Positions 11,207 to 54,919 of a stretch of DNA of 64,000 bases are shown here, in pieces (positions within the stretch are counted from its first letter, which is position 1; each line of letters opens with the position of its first letter). The DNA lies in the NCBI GenBank assembly GCA_035235625.1, contig CP141142.1:11624995-11688994 (forward strand). The letters run 5' to 3'. Origin of the DNA: Saururus chinensis. Its lineage: Eukaryota; Streptophyta; Magnoliopsida; Piperales; Saururaceae. A program made the translations under genes and the position numbers. The notes under the pieces are model-generated. The model was not told the DNA's origin. It searched no databases and saw nothing but the letters and a program-made list of their open reading frames with translations.

Positions 11207-11326
11207 AAAATAATTAGCCATATGTGGATTAAATGTTTAGATATAATGCAACATTTCTAACACTAGTATTTTGTTTCCTGATAACACTGATGCAGTGTTT
11301 GCAGTGAAGTTCCCATAAAAACTAAT

Positions 11327-11455
11327 ACTCCCTTTGTTTAATATTAATAGCAACATTTTAGGTCATTTTTAAAAGAGTTTTTTCCATATTGCCTGGCCAA
11401 AGAACGAAAAATTACATATTCCCTGGAATTTAAATGGAAATCCCATAAAACCTAG
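11327..11455 (+). repeat. Left terminal inverted repeat of MULE
   Basis: Pairs with 20790-20921 in inverse orientation. Identity is high in blocks (ATTAATAGC, TTTTTAAAAGAG, CCATATT, CCTGGC, TTTAAATGGAAAT) with small indels. Long TIRs of this size fit MULEs better than Tc1/mariner elements, although the outermost CTCCCT resembles mariner-type ends. Confidence 0.8.
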
Positions 11456-11959
11456 CATAACACGATATAAGGTAAATTTTGGACTAAAATACGCCTGACC
11501 GGAGATAGGGTTTTATATTGTGTAAAACCCTCACTAAGTTGCATTCATTGGCATATGACTACAAACGCCAATGATTCCTCCGATTTAAAAGGCCTTTCCG
11601 ATTGAAAACTCCATTCCGATTGAAGAGTCCTCTAATTGAGTAGCGTGCATGCAGCATGAGAGAAGATTTTTCGACATATACGACTAGACATTGAAGATTA
11701 GGGTTTTTTGTTTGTTTTGGAACTATTGTGCCAAGAACACTCCGGCATTAGTTCTGGAATGAGTTTTTTTCACAAGTTGAGTTTGAAACAGTACGCCCCA
11801 AAGCATGTTCTTCTTTGTATCTAGGTTCCATTTGTGGCAATCCCGGTAATGGAATAAACTTTTTTGGCCGAACGAGTGATTAATCTAGCTTGGAGAACAT
11901 CAGTGGTGGTTTCGTGGTGAGGTCTCTTGGATATTTGTATGCACAATTTTTGATTTGGC

Positions 11960-12721
11960 GTGTATGGGAGCACACGACATAGGCAGTAGAAGCAGGCTGG
12001 GATAGTGGACAACCAAGTCTACCTGGGTGATGGACAGCCTAGGCCGCCCCTTGGGCGCGGATGGATGTTGGGAGTAGCATTGGAGAGGTTCCGGATGGAT
12101 ACTCGCCTTGCGGAGAAGGCCGAGGAGGAGTCCCTGCGTGGGTAGGACTATAGGTGGCAAGCTGGGCACCACAACCCCTTAGGGATGGACTCCTAAGGTG
12201 GCTAGGACTCATGTTTGCAAAGCAGCCCCACTCCTAGCTCGAGTAGGAGTGAAGGCAGCAGGACGCTGGACTCCTAGTCGAAGACAGACTCCTTTGGTTT
12301 CCTGATTTGGACTAAGGCGGCTGGCTAAGGTGGAGAGAGCTGTTCAGGGTGAGACTCCTTGTATGGGTGGGTTTGTATGTTCTACTAGCATAAGGACCGG
12401 CCAAGGCTGAGTCTATATAAGGGATAGTGCAGGGCAGCCATGGCTGATAGACACATTGTGATTGCAAACCAGAGTGCTCTCAAAGAGAGAGTGCTGCGGC
12501 CTGGTTGATCAGCCCTTGCTCTCTCCGTGGCATCGTATTCTGATGGATAGTGATACATAGCACTGGGCAGAGTTCCTTTGCACCAGAGAAGGATTTGTTG
12601 GCTGATTGCTTGTTCCCTTGTGTATATGAGTGGGAAGGTCGCGAGACATTGGCTGCTGGCTGCACGGTGTAGTTAGACCATCACGAGTGCTGACGCTAGG
12701 CAAAGCTTCGTTCCTGTGACA
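11960..12721 (+). repeat. LTR fragment nested in MULE
   Basis: From the CAGTAG near 11982 to TCCTGTGACA at 12721 this tracks the solo LTR at 35226-36090 closely (shared GGATGGATGTTGGGAG, ACTCGCCTTGCGGA, TATATAAGG, CTGCACGGTGTAGT versus CTGCGCGGTGTAGT). The 3' end is intact (CTGTGACA). The 5' end is degraded or missing and no target duplication could be paired, so it is a truncated or rearranged solo LTR. It sits just upstream of the DUF1985 segment and probably broke that gene's first exon. Confidence 0.7.
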
Positions 12722-12741
12722 GCGAGTCCATCATCATCTCC

Positions 12742-13270
12742 ATGCCATTGTTGGATGTTCTCATTGGTGAGTGTTGGGATGAATCACAGGAGGTCTTCAA
12801 CATAAGGGGCAAAAGACTACCCCTTAATGTGGATGAAGTGACTATGATCACGGGTTTGAGGGGAAAAGGGAACCCGTGTAAACTGGAAAGTAGTGAGGGG
12901 GAGGCTGCCCAAGGCAAGGGGCAATTCTATAAGAAGTTATTCCAAGGGAAGTTGCTGGAGAAGATAGGAATTGAAGAAATGTTGAAAGAAGTGCCTGCCG
13001 AAACACAGATTGTTTCAGATCAAGACTTAGCACAGTTGGCTATCGTGCACATGGGTGTCCTCGTGTTATTTACACAGAGCAACAGAGCTGTATCCCCAGC
13101 TCTGTGTGATTACATAGATGACCTATCGGTCGTGGGGAGCTACAATTGGGCTGGCTCCGTACATGATATGCTGATGAGAGGCATATCAACAGCCCACCAG
13201 AACATCATGAACAAATAGGATGAGCATTCTGCCACGGCCAGAATTCTCGTTGGGGCTTCATTAGTGCTCC
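12742..13270 (+). pseudogene. DUF1985-type domain of MULE-encoded protein
   Basis: The open frame starts MPLLDVLIGECWDESQEVFN and continues with PLNVDEVTMITGLRGKGNPC and MLMRGISTAHQNIMNK. A short further segment (GASLVLQ) ends at a GT donor at 13271. An acceptor at 13610 (TTTGCCAG) opens VWFYEHTSIW, the typical next block of this family. The pattern of F-x-I-x-GKRLPL...EV-x-x-ITGL is that of DUF1985, found in plant Ulp1-like MULE proteins and in VANC anti-silencing factors. A stop precedes the splice region and the LTR insertion upstream removed the start, so this copy is disrupted. Confidence 0.75.
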
Positions 13271-13599
13271 AGGTAATGCTCGTATGTTATATATCATGCT
13301 AACGACCATTAGCATCTCTCTAATAACACGACATGTTTACACACACATGTATATTGTGGTATCGCTCACACGATACGGAGTTGATCATGTTATCAGACAT
13401 ACGCCATATAACATACACGTAGACCTATCATGATCTCTGTAACATGTCTAAGTGTAATATCGTGGATCGGTCATTACACAATGCGTAAGTATCATGTCAT
13501 AGGAATCATGATGTGGATCCAAGCATATTATCAGTAACACGACTAAGTTGTCTTGCTTAGGATACTGACCATTTACACTACTGACCATTATCTTTTGTA

Positions 13600-15200
13600 T
13601 TGTTTGCCAGGTATGGTTTTATGAGCATACCTCCATATGGGCTCCCAGTGGTTCTCCATGCAGCCCGAGGTGCAAGAGGTGGCCCGGATTTACCCAACTT
13701 TTGAGCGACGTGGAGAAGGCCAATAAACTTGACCTAGCTGACGAAAAGTGGATGAAGAAGATTCCTATCACCGGATGATGAAGTGGTGCAAGGAGGTCTT
13801 CATGCGGCCGAAGCCAGATTCACAAATTATAATGCGAATCACACCAATTGCCGAAGAGGCGCACTTGATGGATGGACGATGGGCTACCCCAAAGGCTAAG
13901 TAGTTGGGTACGCAACATTTCCGGCCAATGAGATCCACCCACGCCCTCCACGGTGAGACGTCGGGGCATGTACATTCTGGCCAGGATGTCATTGGATCAT
14001 TCGTAATGCAAGTTGATGTCATGATGGGAATTTGTAATGTTATTTTGGAGAAGGTTGTTCTCTATGGTGAGAGGGGATGGAACACGGAGCGAGTTGAGGC
14101 TGCACTCCAGCGTGTTAAGAACGATCTTGAGGTGGCAACTAGCCTCATAGAATAGATGCAGCCCCCCAAAGAACCGGAGATAGAACAGCCGCATGAACCC
14201 CTTCAACCGGAGGTCGCCCAAGCATCAACCCATCCTCTAAGAACCAGAGGATCACCGTCGGTTCGTTTAAAAGCAAGAACTACAAAATCTAGAGAAGCTC
14301 GCCAACCATCAGCTCCTATCCCTCAACCGGTGGACGAGGGATTCATTTTGAGTAAGTAGGACATTTTAATGTGTAGTGTTTCGTCAGGGGATATTCGTGT
14401 AATCGAGTACATGATAGACTAAACAATCGAGTATTAAAAAAGATGGTTCCATTATAATCGTGTCATCGATCACACAATCATTGAAACAATCGTTACTTTT
14501 GAAAACAATCTGGTTGTGGTCGTGTGATTGTTAGCATGATTAGTGCTCTTTTTGTTTTTTCATCAATACGATATGCAGTTTCATCATGTTTTGTAAAAGA
14601 CGATTGGCGTGCATAGCATTTGTTTACTAACATGATTGCTTACTTCTTAATATAGAGAAACGACAACCGCAAGCTGCCACCAAACCCAAGAAGAAGACTG
14701 GTCTAAAGTTGCAAAGGACCATAATAACTAGATTTTTAACAAAGCTAAATGCAAAATTCTTGGAACAACCATGGGAGGTGGTGGAACCACCCCGGGAGGT
14801 TGAAGAACAACCTTGGGATGTTGAAGAAGAACCCCGGGAAGTCATGTAATCGGACCTTCCCCGGGAGGCCGTGGAACCAAACTTTCCCCTGGAGGTCGTG
14901 GTGGGAAGTTAGCCAAGTTTGGACACATTGCCCAGTCTGCAATGCCTGTTGACGAAGTTCCTCTGGCATTGGTACCTGGCCCATGCAATATCCATCCAGC
15001 GCATCCAAAGTCTCCCACCCCGGAACTAGCTGTTTCAAATGTTGGCTCTAGTGGTAGCACTTTACCAGATACTCCTTTAGTAGATGTGGAAATAATGGAG
15101 AGTATCCGCAATGTGTTAGAGGTCGAAGATGATACTGCGAATAAGACGAATAAGGAGGGTACCATAATAAGGAGGAGCTCAGTATGCGGCTGAAGGACTA
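13600..15200 (+). pseudogene. Middle exons of the DUF1985/Ulp1 gene (degraded)
   Basis: After VWFYEHTSIW the plus-strand frame continues for about 60 codons and then breaks. Proline- and charge-rich pieces follow: 13904-14155, 14156-14359 (many P and Q) and 14749-15193 (VPLALVPGPCNIHPAHPKSP). Ulp1-type MULE proteins have a low-complexity linker between DUF1985 and the protease domain, which fits. Introns between these pieces carry the palindromic motif described separately. Exact exon boundaries could not be fixed. Confidence 0.45.
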
Positions 15201-15213
15201 TCTTGATACATAG

Positions 15214-16215
15214 TTGGTGTTCCACATGGAGCTTCAGAAGGAGGTAGATAAGGACATTATCACGGAATTTCTGTCGAACCCATACAAGTTGTGGCCCATT
15301 GAAACACTCATCTACACCGACTATCTATCTTTGTTAAAGCAGGAGTGCATAACGAATGAGGTAATCTTGTTTCATTGCTCATATGTTTTAACCTTTATCG
15401 TGTTATCAATCAAATGATTGAATAACTGACAAAGATTTACAATTAATTATCGTTTCCCTAATTCGCTAAGTTTTGACTTTAATGGCTGAAGTATAACTAG
15501 CGTTATAATTAATACATGACTTGTAAATGCGTCATGTTATCATGCATACGATATAATAACTTATCGTGTAAAAGATTTCATGATCTGTCGACTATCGTGT
15601 CATTACTAACACGTTTGGTTTTGTGTAGGTCATATACGTCTTCTTCCAACTTCTTAATGAATGAAATTTGAGAAATCTAGGCAGGTACCCCAACTATTTT
15701 TTTGGTAAGTTCGCCATTCAACACTATTTTAACAGCACGGCCGAAGGGCCGGCGTAGAAAGAGGGCATACTCGTTGGCATAATGTTGAGAGGCCTGAATG
15801 TTAACATGGAGAGCGGTTTCATTCCTATCTACGTCACGGGCCACTTTCTCTTGCTTATTGTCCACTATAGGGAGAAGTGATTTAGATGGTACAATCCCCT
15901 AAAGGGTGACCACAGTCACCACTTTGCAGTGGCAGACAGTGTTAGAAAACATGTTGCCAATGGAATGAAGAAGGCTTTTAAGATAAAGGGTGCTCGACAG
16001 TGGCCAATGACTAAGATCAACAAATACCCGTACCTGGAAATAAATGAAGATTGTGGTTTGTACCTCATGTACTACGTAGCGAAGCAAGAAGGGGATGTCC
16101 ATCTACCTGATTTTAGACAACTCGAGATAGCTGGCTTGGTCAGGCTGCAGATCTGTGCTGCTATTCTTCGGGCCAGAATCGACGAGGAATTCGATCTAGA
16201 TAATAATGAATTGTA
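15214..16215 (+). pseudogene. Ulp1/SENP-like C48 cysteine protease domain
   Basis: Segments in order: TEFLSNPYKLWPIETLIYTD, an intron (donor after 15360, acceptor TTGTGTAG at 15630), then TGHFLLLIVHYREK carrying the probable catalytic His, then NPLKGDHSHHFAVADSVRKH, and EINEDCGLYLMYYVAKQEGD with the catalytic Cys in the DCG signature. The frame ends at 16215. C48 proteases cleave SUMO-type conjugates in eukaryotic cells; the role in transposons is unknown. At least one in-frame stop (after HYREK) and a degraded stretch around 15660-15760 show the copy is inactive. Confidence 0.75.
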
Positions 16216-16219
16216 ATTA

Positions 16220-17440
16220 GACAATAGACTTTTTTCACTCTTCTATTAACTGACAAATTTCTTATTTTTTGACCCCTTATTTTATAACTATCCACTGGAA
16301 TAGAAATACATGTTGTTATCATGTTTGTATTTACACGGGGTCGCTTTCAGCCAAATGACATTGGAATTACACCACTCACTGAACACGTTCCAGTTATAAG
16401 CAGCCTCCATAGGTCAAGGACAATCGCGTATAACGGGTTACATGATTGGACAATGGTGATATAGCTATGTCATGGAGGTTCCGTTGAGGTGCAGACGATC
16501 CTCCTCTCTTTCGGGTCCTCCCCTTGAATTCGGTATGCCCATGGGTCACCATTATATTTATAGGTAGGGTGGGATTGTTCTGAAGTGTCGGCTTATGGAA
16601 GTTATTGAAACCCCGAAACTTGTGCTAATTGTTCGGAATTACCGCACGAGCATTTAAGGGAATCACAAAAAATTATGGCGACTCTTCGGGAATAGATTAC
16701 TTAGATGAACGATGGTCTCTTAGGTCATGTTATCATGCAAACTGCGTCATCCTCTGATATCATGTTATACATGATTGCGCTGCCAGTCATGTGTTCTAAT
16801 TTACAATCCATTCGATTATGTGTTAGTAAGCAAATGATTGTTTCGTAAATACTTGGGGACACCTAGTCGGTGGTGTTGTCATGTATTTGATAAAACAATG
16901 TGTACCAAAGTCGGGTTCCAGAACATGCGATAATTGTTACTTATATTTAGATATTCATAACCTTAGTTCATGCTACCAAAAATAATATTATTCACAGAAT
17001 GGATCATTGAGGATGTTGATGACAGATAGGGTGTGAATGCGATGGATCATTGGAGACATTGATATATCGTCGTCTAGTAAATTGTGCCCACCATCGGATA
17101 TAGGTGAGGACCGTATCCGATGGAGGGCCGATTCACTAGCCACCGCTATAGCAATATCCCGTATGATTTGTCTCTGCGAAGAACATCACTATGATAGCAA
17201 TCTCCCTGCAAACTCCTTAGATATACTGCAATACAACGGAATCTTACTGTGTTTTAGCCAGATGCAATGGCACGAACCATTTGAGACATTGCAATAATGC
17301 CTAGTCGCGTTCTTCCCCCCCAAATCCAGGTGAGTACCATATCTGACGGGGGGAAGATACACCATTAGGCACAAAAGCAATCTACGGAATAATCTGTCTT
17401 GGTGCCGACGTTTAGTGGGTGAGCGTTCTGCAAAACCTAA
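16220..17440. other. MULE intergenic region, no gene recognised
   Basis: This lies between the Ulp1 gene end and the TA repeat. An open frame at 17037-17297 has no recognisable motif. A few weak copies of the palindrome half-site occur (TCATGTTATCATGC near 16726). Confidence 0.4.
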
Positions 17441-17442
17441 CC

Positions 17443-17445
<3 letters not shown>

Positions 17446-17536
<91 letters not shown>
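17446..17536. repeat. (TA)n microsatellite
   Basis: About 91 bp of uninterrupted TA dinucleotides inside the MULE, between its two convergent genes. It is likely to be length-polymorphic. Confidence 0.97.
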
Positions 17537-17538
<2 letters not shown>

Positions 17539-17949
17539 TAGGGTGAGAGGGTTACGAACGATCAGGTTATGGAAGGTATTGATGCAGCGAACATTGCGGT
17601 GCTGCTTCAGGAATGATGCCTCGAGAATTGGGTTGTTATTATAATGAAATTGTCATGTGTTCGAACACACGATATGACCAATATCGTGTAAGCAATGGAC
17701 ACTCTTTGACAACTTGATTTTATCGTGTAATTAGTAACATGTAACCCCTTTTGGTCGTGTTGTTGATTACACGATACAAATATACAGTATACCCTATGTA
17801 CAACAATTCATGTTTTAGGAACACATTAATTATATATTACGTGTTGTTGATAACACGATACATATACAAAAATTTCAGCTGAAGAACAGGGGTGGAAAAG
17901 GTAAGCCTGATCGATGTTCCCTTCCTTACGGTATTTGCATACTCTATTA

Positions 17950-20589
17950 TTTGACCTCCTTCGTCTTGTCGTTGGGACATCTGCCACATTGGGAGGCCCC
18001 CCATGTGTGTTGGTACATTATTTGCGGTTGTGACCCAACTGACCGCATGCTCCACATTTTCGTGGGGCATTATGAGGCGGTTGTGACTCTATCCGATTTT
18101 TTCATGGACACCCCTACTGCTTTTGAGGGATAGGTAGGCTGAATGTAGGCATAACTCCAGCTGGTGCCCACTAGTGCCTATCCTTCGTTAGGTGTAAGGG
18201 CTCTTGATAGGTTAGTTTATATATTTCAGTAGAGTACCATCTTTCATAGTACTCAAACACATATAAGTGTCTATTATCGATTGCTGCAATTGCATGCTTG
18301 CATGGTAGACCCAGATGTTGAAACTTTCCACATATGTAGGTATGATCAACCAATTTTACCACATCTTGTGAAGAAAATATCACGAGTATGGGTGCATGAT
18401 AAGCGACTCTATCGTGTTCTTGATTACACAATGTATCATACAATCATGACGGATACATGATAAATGAAAATAACGTGTTTAAACTAACATGATATGAAGC
18501 CTCACGCATAAATGAACACACGCTATGTACATCATCGTATGAATGCAATGTACCTGGTGATATAGTGAGTTAACTGGAATTCATACATTGACACAGGCAA
18601 TACAATCACATTCCTTGCTTCTTCTCGCCTATTTTCAATGTGTTTTTGGGCAAATGGAGTTAACTCTTCCATCATATCCGTCCGTCCGACGTTTTCAAAT
18701 AATGCCATCGTGTGCTCCCTCGTGTGCTCAATTAAACGAGTTATAGGCATCAATTTGGCTTTTTTTAACATTACATTTGTACTTTTAGACTTATTTGAGC
18801 TGAGGGTCCCATATCTTTTCCCTATAAATGATACATTGGCCTAGTGCTCTGAACCTATCATATTTAGCCAGGCATATGCTTCCGGATTATGTTCTTTAAT
18901 GCTGTTCATTGTTTCATCGTACACATTCTTTCTGAACGTTTCGGCTGCAATGTGGAGCTGAATCTTTAGGTAGTTGTCCTTGAATCTGTTTAGCATATTT
19001 GTTGCCATGTGACAGATGCAATATTTGTGGTGTGTAGATGGGAAAAATTTCTTCACAACATTTTCCAATCCCTTATGTCTATCAGAAATGATTGTATCCA
19101 ACTCGGTTGGAGGATAAGAGAATAGATAATTTCTAAGCAACTCAAGAAACCAGCACCAAGTTTTCTCGCATTCATTCTCAACCATTGCAAATGTAACACA
19201 CAACATATTATTGTTCCCATCCAGTGCAGTTGCTATCAATAGCTATCTAGGTTACTTTCCTTTCAAGAAAGTTGCATCAATTGTTAGCAACAACCTCAGT
19301 GTTGTTATGAAAGCTCTCACAACGGGGCTAAGCATCTAGAATACTCTTTTAAAATTGTACCCACCCATTGGTCTGGGAATATCACATGATCTCACTGGCA
19401 CAACTACACTTCTCGAATTTATATATTCTATCTGCCTACCATAAACAGGAAGTAAGCGGTAGGATTCGTCTGGGTCCTTGTCTATTAAATCAGTCAGAGT
19501 TTTACCTGCACAACCGAATACAATTTAGTAAAGGTTATATGACAATGGCTTACATCGTGTTCCCGATTGCACGGCATTTTATGTTTTTGTGTGATCGGAA
19601 TCCATACACGGTGACTGGTCCTGTTTATGGTAACACAATATTGATGTATGTTGTGTGAGTGCAAATTCTGACTATAGTTTAAGCATGTAAACAATAACAC
19701 TCTAGGCTAACATATCGTGACACTAAATCAACACTTCAATTATTCTCATGCATTACCTACGCGCTAACATTTCTTGTAGTTCGCAGTTATGCCCTAGTGC
19801 ATCGAAATATAACTTGCTATGCTCTTAGGTGTAATGTCCACCGAGTTTTTAAACAGTCCATAACATTTTCTCACAATCCAAAGGTGCAATGCTAGGTGAT
19901 GGTTAGTTGACTTCCTTTGGGTTCCACATGAATGAGTCAGCACTATCGTGATAGTCACATGATCTCCTATATTTGAAGCCCTTATGTACCAGTTGCAAGA
20001 ATCATTGGAGTACTTTGCGGCATACATATTCCAGTTTTCATCCACAACATGATATGTGAAATTCGCCTTTAGTACATGAGTGGAAGTTGACAATTTCAAA
20101 GGTGAACTGAGTTTCATTGAATCCGGTATAAAATCCGACATTAGAGCTGGGATGAGCCATTACGACTAGTGATTTAGCTCTATTGACTGTTTGGTTCCTT
20201 TCTATGGAGGGCGATGATGATTTATCACCGTTGTCAGACTCTTTTATCTCGGCATACAATGATAACACCTCCTTATTTGCCTTCTTATGAATGGAGAGCA
20301 TTGATTGGAGGTCCTCATTGTCTTGTAATTCATATATCATGGATAATTGGGAGGATGAAATTAAATACTTCAAACTAATATTACCATTGATGGAAAGTTG
20401 TGCTTTGACTTGCCCCAACAGCTCGCCGAAGCTCCTCGATGGATGAATGTTCATCAATTGTGTCATTCGACTAATATACATGCCATCATTGCCTACCTTT
20501 CTGTTATAATGGATGCAAATACCGATCCTATCTATGATTGGTGTAAAAGAAGGATCGTTTCTATGAAATGCAGCCTTTGGAGCACTCAC
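17950..20589 (-). pseudogene. mudrA: mudrA-type MULE transposase
   Basis: Read on the minus strand. An N-terminal PB1-like domain lies at 20142-20589 (start MSAPKAAFHRNDPSF). The plant MuDR zinc-ribbon/DNA-binding region is at 19794-20141 (blocks LKANFTYHVVDENWNMYAAK, CNWYIRAS). The MULE catalytic core is at 18841-19500, with TIDATFLKGK (first Asp), ISDRHKGLENVV (second Asp) and CICHMATNM. A SWIM zinc finger is at 18171-18400 (ICGKFQHLGLPCKHA). A final zinc knuckle KCGACGQLGHNRK is near 18040. The SWIM finger has lost its first Cys (Tyr instead), and stops interrupt the core (after KRVF) and the knuckle. The transposase would bind the TIRs and move the element; this copy cannot. Confidence 0.85.
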
Positions 20590-20789
20590 ATAGCGTTTGC
20601 GGTGTCAAAAAATACTTTTTTCTTGTTCATCGACGCTCGCCGGTGAGTCACCGCTGGTCAGCTCCTGCCGGCGAGTTCCATTCGTCACCGATGATTCCTA
20701 GCACACTGGAATGGCACAACACTATTTCGGTGTTCATTTATTACTCTCTACTTTAAAACATGATATAGTAGAAACCTAAGGGTAATTTG

Positions 20790-20921
20790 GTCCATAAATA
20801 GGTAATATGACATTTCCATTTAAAATCCATGGAATATGAAATTTTTCATTCTTCGCCAGGGAATATGGGAAAAGCTCTTTTTAAAAACCAAATGTAGCTA
20901 TTAATTTAGTATAGAGGGAGT
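20790..20921 (-). repeat. Right terminal inverted repeat of MULE
   Basis: Inverse match to 11327-11455, ending AGGGAGT at 20921. An unrelated host-like exon begins only 45 bp beyond it, so the element inserted into what was an intron next to a splice donor. Confidence 0.8.
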
Positions 20922-20966
20922 AACAACATAGACACGATGTGGATATAGGAAAGAGATGGTCATTAC

Positions 20967-22357: not shown

Positions 22358-23538
22358 TTATGTACAAGCAGTTACCAGTGGAATTGGACCATAATAAGTT
22401 GACAAATCTAAAACATTGAAGGTTTTAGAGATGTTTAAGTGAGCAGGGAGGTCGACCATATATGCATTGTCATTAATGCATTGTAAAATTTGATATGGGC
22501 CTATCTTCTGAGGGGTGAGCTTGTTGTGGCGGCCAACTGGGAGCATTTCCTTCCGTAGGAAGACTATAACATAATCCCCCACTTGAAACCTCTTGGGCCT
22601 CCTTTTGTTATTGGCTGTGGCCTTGTATTGGGCTGTGACATCCATCATGTGCTGCCAGACTGTTTGGTGGACTGAAATGATGTCTTGGACAGCTTTGAAG
22701 ACATTGCTTGACTCCCCCACTTGTCTAGGCAGCTGGATCAAATCCAAAGTATGGTGAGGAAAGAAGCCATATAGGATCTTAAATGGTGTTTTGCTAGCGG
22801 ATTTGTTTGGGATAGAGTTATAGGCAAACTCAGTTTGTGCAAGAACCAAATCCCATTGTTTAGAAGCAGCCCCCATGAGACTTCTCAGCAAATTTCTTAA
22901 GGTACGATTGACCACTTTGATTTGGCCATCACTTTGGGGGTGGCAAGTGTTGTTGAATTGAAGAGAAGTACCCAATCATTTCTAAATAAACCTCCAAAAA
23001 TGACTTAGACACTTCCTATCCCTATCCGATGTAATTGTCTCTGGTAACCCATGAACTCTAACTATTTCTTTAAAGAATAGGGAAGCCACATATGAAGCAT
23101 TGGATGCCTTCTTACAAGGCACAAAGTGAGCCATCTTGGAGAATCTACCCACCACTACAAAGATTGAATCCACCCTCTTTTGAGTTCTAGGCAATCTTAG
23201 GACAAAATCCATAAAGATATCATCCTAAGGCCTATAGGGAATTGGTAGAGGAGTGTAGGGGGTTAGGAGGTTCCTTTGGCTTGTTGACAAGTATAACATT
23301 ACTGAATAAACTATTGGACATCCTTTGAAAGAGTGGGCCAATGATACTTTTCTTTGAGAAGAGTCATAGTCTTGTACTTGCCAAAGTGTCCCTCTAGTCC
23401 TCCGCTATGCAACTCCTTAATAAGTTGTTGATGGATGGAAGAGGAGGGGATACATAGATGATTACCTTTGTAGAAATAATGTTCCTCAAGGTGGTACTCT
23501 TGAATCGGGTGTTTACTTTGAGAGTACAACTCCCACAT
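22358..23538 (-). pseudogene. Gypsy integrase
   Basis: The zinc-binding HHCC region is at 23311-23538 (LHSGGLEGHFGKYKTM) and continues to CYTCQQAKG after a stop. The catalytic core is at 22982-23212 ([11 protein letters not shown] with the first Asp, [13 protein letters not shown] with the second). The C-terminal part is at 22358-22975, where the usual DGQTEVVNR reads DGQIKVVNR, so the catalytic Glu is replaced by Lys. Stops separate the three blocks. The C-terminus (LTPQKIGPYQILQCINDNAY) is GPY-like. No clear chromodomain is seen before the stop. Confidence 0.85.
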
Positions 23539-23606
23539 AGCCCTCAGCTCCTTTACACAATCAAATCACAAATGTTCAATTCTCAAAGTGGAAAGAAGGG
23601 CGCTCT

Positions 23607-25271
23607 TCAACTCAAGGCATCAGCCACATTGTTTAATGCACCAGATTTATGCTTGATAATAAAAGAGTAGTCTTGCAATTCACAAATCCATCTTGCAAAC
23701 AATCTGTCCACTTTTGTTGGGTTTTGTAAACACCTCAAGGAGTCATGGTCCGTGTCCAATACAAACTCATTAAATACAAGATAGTGCCTCCAATGCTTCA
23801 AATCTTTGATCAATGCAAACAATTCCAACTTGTATGCAAACCATTTCCTTCTTGCTTCATTCAGCTTTGCACTAAAGTAGGAGATGGATCTACCCTTTTG
23901 AGTCAAAACCGCCCCTATTCCCACTTCGGAAGCATCATATTCAACTTCAAATGTCTTGTCAAAATCAGGGAGGGCAAGTACCGGAGCTTGAGTGATCTTT
24001 TCCTTCAGCTGATCAAAGTTTTCTTGGGCTGCTTGAGACCACACAAAGTGGTCCTTTTTCATGTACTAAGTTAAGGGACATTCTATAGTGATGAAATTCT
24101 TGATAAATTGGCGGTAAAAGGTAGCTAAACCATGAAAACTATGCACCTCACTTGCTAATTTTGGTGTAGGCCAGCTTTGAATGGCTCCTATCTTGCTTTG
24201 ATCCACTTAAATGCCCTTGGAATTGACCACATAACCCAAGAATACCATCTGGTTGGTAAAGAAAGAACACTTTTTCATATTTATATACAAGGAGTGATGT
24301 TGGAGAACCTCAAAAACTTTTCCCAGCTCTTGTACATGTTGTTCTTCTCCTTTACTATAGACCAAAATGCCATCAAAGTATACCACAACTGATTTGCCCA
24401 AAAATAGCTTCAAGACTTGAGTCATGAGTCTCATGAAGGTACTTGGAATAATAGACAACCCAAAGGGCATTACTAACCATTTATAAAGACCTTCTCTTGT
24501 CTTGAAGACTGTTTTCCACTCATCTCCGGATCTCAACTTGATTTGATGGTAGCTGGTTCTAAGATCAATTTTGGAGAAGATGGTGGCACCGGTCAACATG
24601 TCATCAAGTCTAGGTATTGGAAACCTATACTTGATGGTAATCTTGTTAATAGTTTTATTATCCACACACATCCTCCAACTTCCATCTTTCTTGGGTACTA
24701 ACAAAGTGGGAACTGCGTATGGACTAAGGCTCTCTTTAATCAGCCCCCTTGCCAAGAGATCTTCTTCTTGTCTTCGCAACTCCACATGCTCAGCTAAGCT
24801 CATGTGGTAGTGTGGAAAGTACGAGAGACTAGAACCCAGTATAAAGTCAATATGATGCTGAATTTCCCTCATAGGAGGCAGCTCCAAAGGAAGCTCTTCG
24901 GTGACTGCCTGCTTGTATTTCTCTAAGAGGTGTTGAACTTGTTTTGGGTGGCTTTGAACCTCGGATTTCAACTCCTTCTCTTTAGCCTTGTTGACCAAAA
25001 GATACACAACCTCAGTGGTAATTAGGTCTTTGCAGTTTTTAGTCACCAATAGAGTAGTTTTGGGCAAACTCTTGCTGGTTGGTGGTATTTCTTTGGAAGA
25101 ATCATCTAGCTGGGACTTCTCTTTATGCCTCTTAACAAGGGTTGGCTTGCTAGGCTTAAGTCTAACCTTGACCCCTTGCTGCTTGAAGGCATATGTGTTT
25201 TCCCTCCCATCATGGGTGCTTTGGACATCAAATTGCCAAGGCCTTCCCAAAAGAATATTGCATCCATCCAT
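23607..25271 (-). pseudogene. Gypsy reverse transcriptase and RNase H
   Basis: RT occupies 24207-25271: [20 protein letters not shown], then [15 protein letters not shown]. The active site reads YFDGILVYS where YFDDILVYS is expected, so the second catalytic Asp is lost. RNase H follows after a stop (23607-24062): FDKTFEVEYDASEVGIGAVL, then YKLELFALIKDLKHWRHYL and HKSGALNNVADALS. The two blocks are separated by a damaged stretch at about 24063-24206. Confidence 0.9.
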
Positions 25272-25334
25272 ATTTATAACATCACAAACAATGTTAGTGG
25301 AATAATGTTTACCAATAGAGAAGGGAACCTTACA

Positions 25335-30252: not shown

Positions 30253-31223
30253 CTATTTTTTAAAATCAATACTTTCTATGGCTTGTGAAAATAAAACCGG
30301 ATCTTTAGATGTCCCAATATTATAAGCAGATTCTTGTAGATAAACCATATAGTCATTAGAAATAGCTAGTCTTCTGATCCTTTCAGATCTTCTTAAGGCT
30401 ATTTGTGGTTTTTCTACTACTTGCTCATTGATAATAATCTCATTATGAAGTGATGGAATATTATCTTGTCTTCCCATTTCATCATGTTGTCAGCTATTGA
30501 AGGACCAACAAGTTGTGGTTCAATAGTTTGTTGTTCTTGATTGATAGGACATACATCAATCATAAGAACAACAATTTGTTTAAAAGTTATAGGTAATGGG
30601 ACATGCATCCTAACTTCTTTAATTACCACATTTTGTGTTGTAGCACTCCCACTGATTTCACCATTTTCCGAAAATCTTGCATTACTAGTCTTAAAAATTT
30701 TTGTACTATGGTTATTACAGTAAAACCTATACCCTTTGGATTTTTTAGGGTAACCAATAAAGTAACCACTGATTGTCCTTGAATCTAATTTTTGTTTATG
30801 TGGATTATAAATTCTGACTTCCATTGGACTACCCCAAACATGTAGGTGTCTTGAATTGGGTTTCCTTCCAGTCCACAACTCAAAAGGAGTTTTTGGAACT
30901 ACCTTACTAGGAACCCTGTTTAACAAATAAACAACAGTCTTAAGTATATGAATCCACATAGATGAGGGTAAAGTAGAGTTACTTATCATACTTCTAACCA
31001 TATCCATAAGAGTACGATTCTGCTTTTCAGCTATACCATTTTGCTGAGGCATTCCAAGAAGATTAGCACATGGGTCGGGGTGTTGCCTTGATTCATCATA
31101 TTTTCTAAAGTACTCACCACCTCTATCAGACCTTATGATTTTCACCTTTTTGTCTAATTGTCGTTCAACCTCAGTAATGTACACCTCAACAACATTTACT
31201 GTTTGAGATTTATTATTTAACAA
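30253..31223 (-). pseudogene. Copia integrase
   Basis: Core [19 protein letters not shown] carries a catalytic Asp; [20 protein letters not shown] carries the catalytic Glu. Then [20 protein letters not shown] and [20 protein letters not shown], the standard copia GKGY-side blocks, followed by an ISGYFIGY segment. The piece at 30253-30477 (RRSERIRRLAISNDYMVYL) is the usual linker to RT. Confidence 0.85.
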
Positions 31224-31489
31224 ATAGACATAACCATAATGTGAAAAATCATCTATAAATGTGATGAAATACTTTCCTCTACCAAAAGATGGAACATCAA
31301 AAGGCCCACAAATATATGTATGGACTATCTCAAGAGGTTCCTTACTCCTTGTGGCACCCTTCTTTGTGTGTTTGGTTTATTTTTTTTTAAAACAATACAC
31401 ACACACCAAGATCAGTAAAATCAAGATGATAAAGAATCTCATCTTTTACTAATCTTTCTATTCTTTCTTGGGAAATGTGTCATAATCTT

Positions 31490-32065
31490 CTATGCCACAA
31501 GTTTTGAGGAAGTTTCATTAATAAAGCTACAGTTAGCACCAACATAAGTATGCAGGGAAAATAGTGAAGCAAAAAAATAATCATCAAGATTAAATTTATA
31601 TAAGCCATCACATAAAATACCAGAACCAATACATGAAGCATTCTTAAATAGGCTAAAATACTTATTCCCAAACTTAAAGGTGTATCTATCAACATCAAGT
31701 CTCGATAAAGAAACTAGATTTCTAGAAACTAAAGGAACATAAAGAGTTTCAAATAAATCTAAGTGATGCCCACTATCTAGGAATAGCTGATAAGTCCCAA
31801 TGGCTTCAATGAGAACTTTGTCCCGATTTCCCATGAACAGAAAGTTCTCCTTTAGGTTTGTGGTTTGGATAATAAGGAATCCCTGCAAAGTGTTGAAAAC
31901 ATGAGTAGTACCTCCTGAATCCACCCACCAAGTATTAGAAGGAACTTCAGTAAGGTTAGATTCAAAAACATAAATTATATCAATACCTTTCTTTTGAAAC
32001 CATTCCTTTCTTTTTTGGCAATCTTTATGAAGGTAACCAAATTTTCTATAAAAGTAGCACTTCAA
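31490..32065 (-). pseudogene. Copia gag zinc knuckle, protease and pre-integrase
   Basis: CYFYRKFGYLHKDC corresponds to the CCHC knuckle, with Tyr replacing the second Cys and the His. Protease follows: TWWVDSGGTTHV with the DSG active site. Then comes the usual GNRDKVLIEAIGTYQL block and the pre-integrase stretch TLYVPLVSRNLVSLSRLDVD. Confidence 0.8.
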
Positions 32066-32179
32066 GCCCCTTTCCTTCTGATGATTGTCTTTATGGGTAG
32101 CATCATTTTTTTTAGGAGCCTTTCCTCTAAAGCTTTTGAATTTCCTTTACTTACCTTTAACCTCTTGAGAAACCATGTG

Positions 32180-34769: not shown

Positions 34770-36480
34770 TAACAATTGATAGAATTCTTTTGTATAATCA
34801 TCCACCAATTTTGACCCTTACCATAGGTCTTGCAATCACTAATACATCAGTCAAGTAAAGTTGTAAGGTAGAAAGTCTTGCCTCATGTGCTTATTTAACT
34901 TCTCCCATGCATTTAACTATCTTTGGCTTACCTTGGCCCGCACGAGTAGATTTGATTTGGTGCAACCATGCAGCTATTTCATCTCAAAAGCAAGTTACCA
35001 CCATGAGAACATGCTTATCCTTTGGAATTTCCTTGAAGTCAAGGATGTCTTTTACATTGGTAACCCAATATAATAACTCTTCAAGCTGCATTCCCCCATA
35101 AAATTTAGGGATGTCAATCTTCAAACCATCTTCCCAGTTCCAATTTGCCATATCATCTTGTCTCGAGGTCATGTAAACCTCTAGACTCCTTGGCGCTTGT
35201 AGCGGGAGTCACCCATGTTGTCTGGTGTTAGCCCCTCCACTTTTTGCTTAGACAAGGGGGCGGCTACCCCCTATACATGGCAGTAGACAGCCAAGTAAGC
35301 TTGGGCGACGGACAGCCTGAGCAGCCCCTTGGGCACGGATGGATGTTGGGAGCAGCGTTGGAGCGGTTCCGGACGAGCACTCGCCTTGCGGAGCAGGCTG
35401 AGGTAGAGTCCCTGCGCGGGCAGGACTCCTAGTGGTGTGCTGGGCTCCACAACACCCTAGGGACGGACTCCTAGGAGCGCTAGGACACAAAGAGGCAGCA
35501 CAGCCCGACTCCTAGTACGGGTAGGAGATGATACACAGGTTTCCTTGAATGACACAACTCTAGAAGCTGATGGACGCTGGACTCCTAGTCGAAGTCGGAC
35601 TCCTTCACAGGTTTCCTTATATGGTTTGGGGCGACCCTCACAGGTTTCCTAGGCTGGCTAGGACAACCATAGGCTGGGAAGAGTTGGGACAGGGAGAGAC
35701 ACTGTATTTGCTTGGGCTGGGACTGTATTCCTAGTAGGACTCGGACTCGTATGATGAGTCTATATAAGGGAGAAGGCTGGGGGCGACCTGGGCATGTACA
35801 GAAACCAGAAAACCAGAGAGAAAGAGAGAGGACGAACCAGAGAGAAGGTGCTCCCTCTCTGCCTGCATTTTGGCTGGTCAGCCCTGCCTTTCTCCCTGCC
35901 ATTGTAACCGACGGACTGTGTTTACAAGCATTGGGCGGAGCCCCTTTGCACCAGAGAAGGCTGAGTAGGCTGTGTACTTGTTTTCCCCTGCGCATACGGG
36001 AGGGAAGGACGGAGAGTTGGCTGCTGGCTGCGCGGTGTAGTCAGGCCATCACAGGCTGAGGACGCTAGAGAAAGCTCCACCCCTGTGACATCTGGCATCA
36101 TGGTGAGGTAATTGATCTACCTCCTCATCACCATGTAAGGCAATGTTGGAAAAAAGATTCTCGTCGGGGCCATCAACCTCTGACTCATCATCTTCAACTT
36201 GATCATTAGACTAAGTCAAGTTGGGATTTTGACAAGCAACTATCAAATCAACCATATGAAGAGTGAGCTGCTCAACCTGTCACGACAACCTTGCTACATC
36301 CCAATCATTGATCTCATCAATTCCTGCAACACATCTTCCACGAAGTTAGGGCGGCATGTTGGACATGTGTAGGGCCACTAACTGGTACAGGGCTGAATTG
36401 ATGGTAGGAATGTCATTTGATATATCCGGTCATAGGGGCTCACAACTTTCCTCTCACGAATTTCAATGGCCAAGTCACAG
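34770..36480 (-). pseudogene. Ty3/gypsy gag remnant split by a solo LTR
   Basis: Minus-strand gag pieces lie on both sides of the insertion. Right side (36096-36480): QVEQLTLHMVDLIVACQNPN and acidic ESEVDGPDENLFSNIAL. Left side (34984-35172): GLKIDIPKFYGGMQLEELLY and WVTNVKDILDFKEIPKDKHV, the standard gag core, running into degraded sequence to about 34.78 kb. The protein resembles the gag of Tat/Athila or Tekay-type plants elements with the IDIPEFHG signature. No pol is present. Confidence 0.75.
35226..36090 (+). repeat. 865-bp solo LTR
   Basis: Begins TGTTAGCCCCTCCACTTT and ends CACCCCTGTGACA, with a perfect 5-bp target duplication TCTGG (35221-35225, 36091-36095). It contains TATATAAGGGAG at about 35761, a plausible LTR promoter. 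The same family occurs as a truncated copy inside the MULE at about 11960-12721. The GC-rich sequence yields chance open frames only. Confidence 0.9.
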
Positions 36481-54035: not shown

Positions 54036-54919
54036 GGGTTTATTTAGATTGGTAGAAATTAAGAGAAAGGAAATGAATTTTCTTTAAACTCCCATAATTT
54101 CTACTCTTTGGTGCAATATAAAAAGAGAAACTAAAGTAAAAATTAGGAGAAAAATGGTGAAAAATTGACCCAAAAAATTTTCACCCTTCAACCCAAACTT
54201 ATGCCTTTAATATTCATAGTGAACCTTGTCACTGTCATTGCCACAACCATTGCCACCAAATCTCTGCTACTACCACTATTGTCATCACCGCTACTACTAC
54301 CACCACCGCCTCTATGCCGCAACTCCACCACTACCATAACTACTGCCACCACCACTATCACCAATGCCACCTCTACCACAACTACTGTAATCATAATTAC
54401 CACTGACACTACTACTGCTTCCACCACTACCACGACCATCGCCACTGCTACCACTACTGCTACCTCCACCGTCACCATTACTGTCACCATTATCACCATC
54501 ACCACTGCTACCACCACTTCCACTACTACCTCTACCACCACCTCCACTGTTACCTCCACCACCACTACCATTGTTGCTACTATAGCCACCATCACAACTA
54601 CCGTTATTGCTACAAGCACTACTGCCACTACCGCCATCGCCACCACTGACACCCTTACAACTACCACCACCGCCCCTAACACTACCGCTGCCATCACCGC
54701 TTCTGCTGCCATGGCTGCCGCCCTCTACTGCTATTATCACCATGGCTAACTCCACCACCACTACTAACATTGGTAGACTGAAGCTTCAATTTTTTATAGC
54801 AACATTGGTGTAACCAAATAGTAAATTTTTCTTAGGAATCTCCTAGTTTCTCTTTCACCCATATTCACTTTCTCTTTCCCTTTCACTTTCTCCCGCTTTT
54901 CACCAATCCAGACATACCC
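54036..54919. mobile_element. Non-autonomous TIR element nested in LINE
   Basis: The left end GGGTTTATTTAGATTGGTAG pairs with GGGTATGTCTGGATTGGTGA read inward from the right end. Both are followed by A/G-rich sequence with GAGAAAG. This GGGTATGTTTGGATTGG-type terminus is common in plant non-autonomous hAT/MULE-like elements. The target duplication is not clear. Its interior is mainly the trinucleotide tract listed separately. Confidence 0.6.
54200..54745. repeat. Trinucleotide-rich tract (ACC/ACT/GCC)
   Basis: About 545 bp of degenerate triplet repeats (CCA/ACT/ACC/GCC/ATC). It keeps frames open on both strands: Thr/Ile/Ala-rich on plus; Val/Gly/Ser-rich on minus. These frames are products of the repeat and not evidence of a protein. 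Confidence 0.9.

Follow-up and report, generated by a model that had tools for sequence, protein, structure and literature searches.

A 64,000-nucleotide stretch of Saururus chinensis DNA (assembly GCA_035235625.1, contig CP141142.1, positions 11,624,995 to 11,688,994 of the forward strand; hereafter the window, numbered from its first letter) contains a Mutator-like element (MULE) through which a long palindrome recurs. The sites form an array with a characteristic spacing, lie mainly in noncoding DNA and, in the loci sampled, are tied to one DUF1985/MULE lineage. Probably they form an array targeted by the DUF1985/Ulp1-like protein that the element itself encodes, which would be an anti-silencing factor of the VANC/KIU type. 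VANC anti-silencing has been worked out in Arabidopsis; the candidate described here has a much larger and more informative target, and it offers 801 exact sites, array loci free of coding sequence and DUF1985 loci of the same genome that are without the motif. This makes it testable which part of the protein reads the DNA, whether helical phasing signals cooperative binding, and in what way protein and target change together.

Palindromic sites in the window

Throughout, a site is an ATCGTGT-N8-ACACGAT core with at most three mismatches (at least 11 of 14 core matches). The window holds 21 sites, against a mean of 1.36 in 100 dinucleotide shuffles (largest 5), and 12 of them have at most two mismatches, in agreement with the "at least eleven good copies" counted in an earlier, sequence-only reading of this DNA. 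That reading had seen no copies outside the element, and indeed all 21 lie within 11375-20877 and none in the flanks, the density being far higher than in shuffled or flanking sequence. The interval it gave for the motif, 13353-19575, is too narrow, as the sites start from 11957 to 19618. Two convergent genes occupy the element, a DUF1985 gene on the plus strand and a transposase gene on the minus strand. One site lies at the 5′ end, ten lie in three predicted introns, none in the four exon stretches drawn, five between the genes and five in the transposase region:

11957 to 11978, no strand: weak 11/14 site in terminal noncoding DNA on the 5′ side
13273 to 13610, plus strand: intron 1, with sites at 13353 and 13491 and weaker ones (10/14) at 13311, 13384 and 13522
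14352 to 14655, plus strand: intron 2, with sites at 14394, 14457, 14519 and 14583 and weaker ones (10/14) at 14426, 14551 and 14615
15361 to 15628, plus strand: intron 3, with sites at 15397, 15531, 15563 and 15594
16318 to 17859, no strand: sites at 16318, 17652, 17722, 17754 and 17838, between the convergent genes
18411 to 18493, no strand: sites at 18411 and 18472, both in the region of the transposase gene, the former overlapping the open frame with the SWIM motif
18719 to 18740, no strand: weak 11/14 site, within a transposase-gene open frame
19554 to 19639, no strand: two 11/14 sites within the region of the transposase gene, at 19554 and 19618

Matches to PF09331 and PF10551, together with the ten intronic sites, bear out the description of a DUF1985-carrying MULE with a motif dispersed through its noncoding DNA. 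The statement that coding segments are free of the motif is nearly right: it holds for the DUF1985 exons as drawn, and fails for the 11/14 site at 18719, in a frame of the transposase region, and for the site at 18411, which overlaps the SWIM frame.

This placement bears on a reading in which the palindromes are sites of the transposase or of an accessory transposition protein, in the manner of Spm TnpA, whose sites are subterminal, and serve end pairing or self-regulation, not anti-silencing. The same element does encode a transposase, and five of the sister loci introduced below (L006, L008, L013, L014 and L020) have transposase pieces with no DUF1985/Ulp1-like piece within the fetched 10 kb. 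Moreover, TnpA of Spm and MURA of MuDR are, like the factor proposed here, element-encoded proteins tied to loss of methylation in their own families (PMC10398659). However, MURA acts on terminal inverted repeats (TIRs; PMC10398659), whereas the sites here are internal and intronic. Transposase sites would be expected at the ends, yet those of the window occupy the introns and the middle of the element, with one weak site in its first 1.3 kb and none in its last 1.2 kb. Hence, we regard sites for transposition as an unlikely explanation.

Sister loci and controls

A genome-wide count gives 801 copies of the exact palindrome and 6 of the reversed pattern. Twenty 10-kb sister loci were fetched around exact matches, from among 50 listed sites, all on contig C1; with the window, they make up the 21 element loci referred to below. 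Every one of the 20 has several sites (3 to 36); the absence from sister copies that would have refuted the sequence-only reading is not seen. Coding homology to the window element, either to the transposase or to the DUF1985/Ulp1-like gene, is present in 15 of the 20, and 10 have pieces of the DUF1985 or Ulp1 gene; DUF1985 homology is found in 8 of the 20 after the extension of four loci, three of which gained it. Nor does the motif prove to be part of one inactive tandem array unrelated to DUF1985-bearing copies, the arrays being tied to DUF1985/MULE elements.

Coding homology to the window element was not detected in L007, L009, L011, L018 and L021. The first two, L018 and L021 match its end sequences by BLAST, L021 only in the outer part that belongs to a flanking miniature inverted-repeat transposable element (MITE). 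Dense arrays without detected coding sequence lie at L018:4027-5308, L011:3858-5392 and L009:4970-5764; element-like ends in L009 are about 2.0 kb apart, with no 9-bp duplication found. These three loci are possibly nonautonomous elements served in trans by the same factor.

Eight control loci (three near contig ends, five at round coordinates) and the window flanks, 104,479 bp in all, contain no site and no MULE, DUF1985 or Ulp1-like homology. This matters for the proposal that the palindromes bind a host transcription factor or chromatin protein and act as enhancers or insulators driving expression of the element. Any dimeric DNA-binding protein could read a palindrome, and the helical phasing described below suits cooperative factors. 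Nevertheless, sites are lacking both from these controls and from five other DUF1985 loci, and they are found throughout introns and between 3′ ends, not at promoters, which leaves a host factor quite improbable.

Coding avoidance was quantified in 12 loci, each having 600 bp or more of protein homology, the window and L006, L007, L008, L009, L011, L018, L020 and L021 being excluded. Protein-homologous sequence covers 18,763 of 77,945 bp in these loci and contains only 10 of their 233 sites; the density is 0.53 per kb in coding sequence versus 3.77 per kb elsewhere. Among strong sites (at least 13/14), 3 of 47 are in protein-homologous sequence.

Shape of the motif

The consensus of 369 sites from the 21 element loci is TATCGTGT-TATYRATA-ACACGATA, in which the symmetric preference also holds in the spacer and at the edges, at positions that played no part in picking the sites. 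Bases three or more positions outside the motif carry 0.06-0.14 bit and those between sites about 0.06 bit, so the sites have the palindrome in common and their surroundings hardly at all. The sequence-only reading had recognized the palindromic core, and had overlooked both the symmetric preference in the spacer and outer bases and the regular spacing.

The spacer is strongly constrained in length. At a threshold of 11 or more core matches out of 14, the window has 21 cores with N8, 1 with N7 and 1 with N9, against 9, 10, 11 and 10 with N0, N5, N10 and N20; the 21 element loci have 370 with N8, 26 with N7, 37 with N9 and 123 each with N0 and N10. The N0, N5, N10 and N20 forms were rejected as separate spacers: most touch N8 sites and are ascribed to the inner symmetry of the motif, the inner bases of an N8 site resembling another half-site. 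When cores touching an N8 site are left out, there remain 12 with N0, 12 with N5, 13 with N10 and 6 with N20 in the 21 loci, next to 26 with N7 and 37 with N9. None of the 37 N9 cores touches an N8 site, and an exact N9 match occurs in L011 at 4088; N9 may be a minor real variant, perhaps tolerated.

Inverted symmetry would also permit a hairpin with an 8-nt loop, and the palindromes might then act as structures in RNA or as cruciforms, one possibility being precursors of small RNAs used in silencing. The spacer, however, is itself symmetric (TATYRATA), and the phasing at about 10.5 bp reported below is a trait of duplex DNA; we attach very little probability to such structures.

Spacing and helical phase

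Among the 370 sites, 98 adjacent spacings are of 31 or 32 bp, and plain 31-32 bp arrays make up some stretches (L018, L015). Tandem Repeats Finder (TRF) reported no array of the motif in the window, because the units are too diverged, and the spacing emerged from the consensus scan.

The phase relation extends beyond this unit. For 117 gaps of 34-130 bp, a set that excludes pairs with alike intervening sequence, phase concentration is 0.41 at 10.5 bp and 0.43 at the best period of 10.8 bp, whereas the maximum in 2000 random sets, each at its own best period within 8-14 bp, is 0.318. With gaps near multiples of 31.5 bp dropped, the 76 left have a mean cosine of 0.302 versus a null of -0.041 (sd 0.084, p=5e-5); the copies are related, so gaps are only partly independent in both statistics. 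By arithmetic, the direction of the half-sites flips from one to the next along consecutive palindromes, in steps of 15 and about 16.5 bp, roughly 1.5 turns each.

These observations can be set against a neutral tandem repeat that has spread within one element family and is read by no protein. The plain 31-32 bp arrays would suit it, as would the sites that related copies have in common and the modest conservation of sites. On the other hand, the bases between sites have next to nothing in common while symmetric positions agree, and coding avoidance, the strong preference for N8 and a helical phase that persists at gaps other than 31.5-bp multiples all speak against neutrality, which we accordingly hold to be very unlikely.

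The DUF1985 gene and its Ulp1-like segment

The candidate reader of the palindromes is the product of the DUF1985 gene. The domain matches PF09331 at window 12700-13215 (E=4.5e-9; 36.8 bits versus a cut-off of 35.1). Coding features of the element are as follows:

12700 to 13272, plus strand: exon remnant with the DUF1985 domain (12793-13179; PF09331), its 5′ side broken by an insert at 12004-12721
14763 to 14839, plus strand: within exon 3 of the DUF1985 gene, a tandem repeat with units of 21 nt (7 aa), from TRF and translation
15881 to 16213, plus strand: piece homologous to the Ulp1/C48-like open reading frame of L024 (tblastn, 72% over 111 aa)
18171 to 18443, minus strand: transposase SWIM zinc-finger segment (PF04434, E=6.9e-6)
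18841 to 19242, minus strand: MULE transposase catalytic segment (PF10551, E=2.3e-15; PF00872, E=1.9e-11)
19794 to 20604, minus strand: N-terminal transposase segments, with weak matches to DBD_Tnp_Mut (E=0.011) and PB1-like (E=0.016), both under cut-offs

The splice positions of the three predicted introns align in other copies, with GT and AG mostly retained; the acceptor of intron 1 in L017 is GG. Tandem peptide repeats recur in the DUF1985 gene, with units of 7 aa in the window and L017 and of 16 aa in L016 and L024 (two in L012), and their copy number varies between copies. In L024, 7947-8531 matches PF02902 (Ulp1/C48; E=4.2e-8), with weak matches to SENP among solved structures (best 3.3e-4), and in L033 DUF1985 homology lies upstream of Ulp1/C48 coding sequence on the same strand. 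We infer that the DUF1985 and Ulp1-like parts are one gene. The DUF1985 and C48 pieces returned no homologue when used as protein-search queries.

DUF1985 loci of other lineages

A search for the DUF1985 family scored 150 of 957 candidates; the window copy is absent among the matches listed. Five other DUF1985 loci (on C2, C3, C8 and C9) were inspected over 1.7 kb each from near the domain end. None of the five has a site, one chance-like 10/14 site apart, and none has protein similarity to the window pieces; a repeated noncoding motif of their own was not evident in these 1.7 kb. All eight motif-lineage copies, by comparison, have 5-10 sites in the 1.7 kb after the domain. None of eight listed DUF1985 matches lies within 10 kb of an exact motif (nearest 13.5 kb), a comparison limited to exact sites, and to the stretch of C1 for which they are listed. 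In the sampled loci, the motif is restricted to one DUF1985/MULE lineage. This falls short of full co-variation, because the motif itself led to these copies, apart from the one that is the window's own; the co-variation of motif and DUF1985 raised in the sequence-only reading is seen in one direction only.

At L037:1140-1633 and L040:882-1126, DUF1985 loci of these other lineages show short introns that lack this motif, as well as long repeats that are purine-rich and coding-like, their units reaching 81 nt.

Sequence change at the sites

The four commonest departures from the consensus half-site are G4>A (141), A1>G (121), C3>T (109) and G6>A (100), of which two are CpG transitions and one is not at a cytosine. 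CpG transitions run at 0.31 in the motif and 0.28 in the flanks, and CpG transversions at 0.069 and 0.113. Such frequent CpG transitions fit long-term cytosine methylation of the elements; A1>G requires a different cause, perhaps tolerance by the binder. An initially sharp footprint of conservation, about 26 bp wide, was rejected as proof of selection, having faded to a modest effect with one alignment per other locus.

Relation to known anti-silencing systems

According to Hosaka et al. (PMC5735166), VANC21 binds motif-dense noncoding DNA, VANC proteins carry variable tandem peptide motifs, and the motifs of VANC21 and VANC6 differ. The element described here resembles VANC21 and VANDAL21 (Hiun) of Arabidopsis in its DUF1985 protein, its motif-dense introns, intergenic and terminal noncoding DNA, its tandem motif arrays and its variable tandem peptide repeats; its motif may also be specific to the family, as that of VANC6 and VANDAL6 is (PMC5735166). 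The motifs themselves are unlike, as the sequence-only reading had stated: that of VANC21, YAGTATTAY, is 9 nt long, non-palindromic and in one orientation, and that of VANC6, AGTTGTCC / AGTTGTAC, is 8 nt long (PMC5735166), whereas the palindrome here spans at least 22 bp. DUF287 is reported for the VANC21 system, in contrast to the Ulp1-like segment here, and the unrelated AT9TSD1 bears the VANC6 motif (PMC5735166), a situation that the coding-free arrays might parallel.

A 2026 review describes KIU as the Ulp1-carrying type of VANC, with KIU VANDALs recognising specific noncoding motifs (PMC13317346); the Ulp1-like coding sequence in a VANC-type gene of a MULE is a likeness to it. Strong conservation is assigned there to eudicots, and rice MULEs with Ulp1 are also listed (PMC13317346). 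VANDAL elements have 9-bp target-site duplications (TSDs) and TIRs of 46-174 bp (PMC6446971), and the window copy has a 9-bp TSD and imperfect inverted ends of about 80 bp. Our search of the open-licence literature, in which the motif letters themselves were not used as a query, found no paper with this motif. A study by Sasaki et al. (2022) on VANC evolution in eudicots reportedly deals with motif sequence and density and with the dependence of a VANC target on helical periodicity.

The sequence-only reading had suggested that DUF1985 and the motif may form a parallel, undescribed anti-silencing system. The link itself gains from the Ulp1-like coding sequence, from variable repeats in line with the DUF1985 exon and from the absence of the motif in all five other DUF1985 loci; the system is best explained as belonging to the VANC kind already described, in a variant form whose palindromic target is new and long, and not as a wholly parallel one.

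A model for the array

In the model that we favour, each palindrome, about 24-26 bp long, would be bound by a symmetric unit of the DUF1985/Ulp1-like protein, which is probably a dimer. Since the spacings follow the helical repeat, neighbouring units would face the same side of the double helix and could bind cooperatively. Arrays bound in this way, in introns and between genes, would work against DNA methylation throughout the element as well as in its sister copies and coding-free relatives. Binding, dimerisation, cooperativity and demethylation are here predicted from sequence.

Several findings weigh against this model. The sister loci were chosen by the exact motif on one contig, so that their carrying the motif follows from the way they were picked. 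Two of the three pieces with C48 homology that were run against Pfam (those of the window and L022) are without a match, and the DUF1985 match of L012 (8e-6) is under the curated cut-off. The AlphaFold2 model of DUF1985 is unusable (mean pLDDT 36.7). The approach that yielded the 9-bp duplication of the window copy found none around L006, L008 and L009. The window copy looks inactive, given the 0.7-kb insert in its 5′ side and the stops within its frames. Conservation of sites is modest, with A/T differences of 0.175 in the motif versus 0.213 in the flanks and non-CpG C/G differences of 0.323 versus 0.338 (one alignment per locus). Finally, the motifs of VANC21 and VANC6 are of 8-9 nt, VANC21's being in a single orientation, and this short, non-palindromic character is not found here; it is a trait of the two published motifs and is not known as a requirement of the VANC kind. 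The missing C48 matches and the missing duplications around copies slightly lowered our confidence in an anti-silencing target array, which stays moderate.

A bolder version may be put forward tentatively. As the half-sites alternate at about 1.5 turns, the array could provide the template on which a dimeric DUF1985/Ulp1-like protein assembles into a continuous, screw-symmetric coat; the protein would then open silenced chromatin cooperatively and not as separate monomers. At such a coat, the Ulp1-like part could strip SUMO from silencing factors.

Element boundaries and neighbouring sequence

The element extends over 11375-20877 (9,503 bp), framed by the 9-bp TSD TTTTTAAAA, and its termini are inverted: GAGTTTTTTCCATATT / GAGCTTTTCCCATATT.

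11366 to 11374, no strand: left TSD, TTTTTAAAA
11375 to 20877, no strand: Mutator-like element, 9,503 bp, delimited by TSD and inverted ends; many alignments to other copies break off at about 11375 and about 20877
11375 to 11454, plus strand: left TIR, degenerate, about 80 bp, from local alignment to the right end, with like ends in other loci
20800 to 20877, minus strand: right TIR, degenerate, from local alignment to the left end
20878 to 20886, no strand: right TSD, TTTTTAAAA

The halves of a MITE with CTCCCT ends, which we take to be Stowaway-like, flank the element at 11326-11374 and 20878-20922; the MULE seems to have inserted into it. A repeat of about 0.7-0.8 kb is present twice in the window (12004-12721 and 35282-36090, 67% alike), and its first copy interrupts the 5′ side of the DUF1985 gene. 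The window has no Rfam match at gathering scores. Farther along, frames at 22358-25334 and 30417-32146 resemble, as judged by eye, Gypsy-type and Copia-type retroelement proteins, and 54147-54785 is a long stretch of low complexity in which both strands have open frames.

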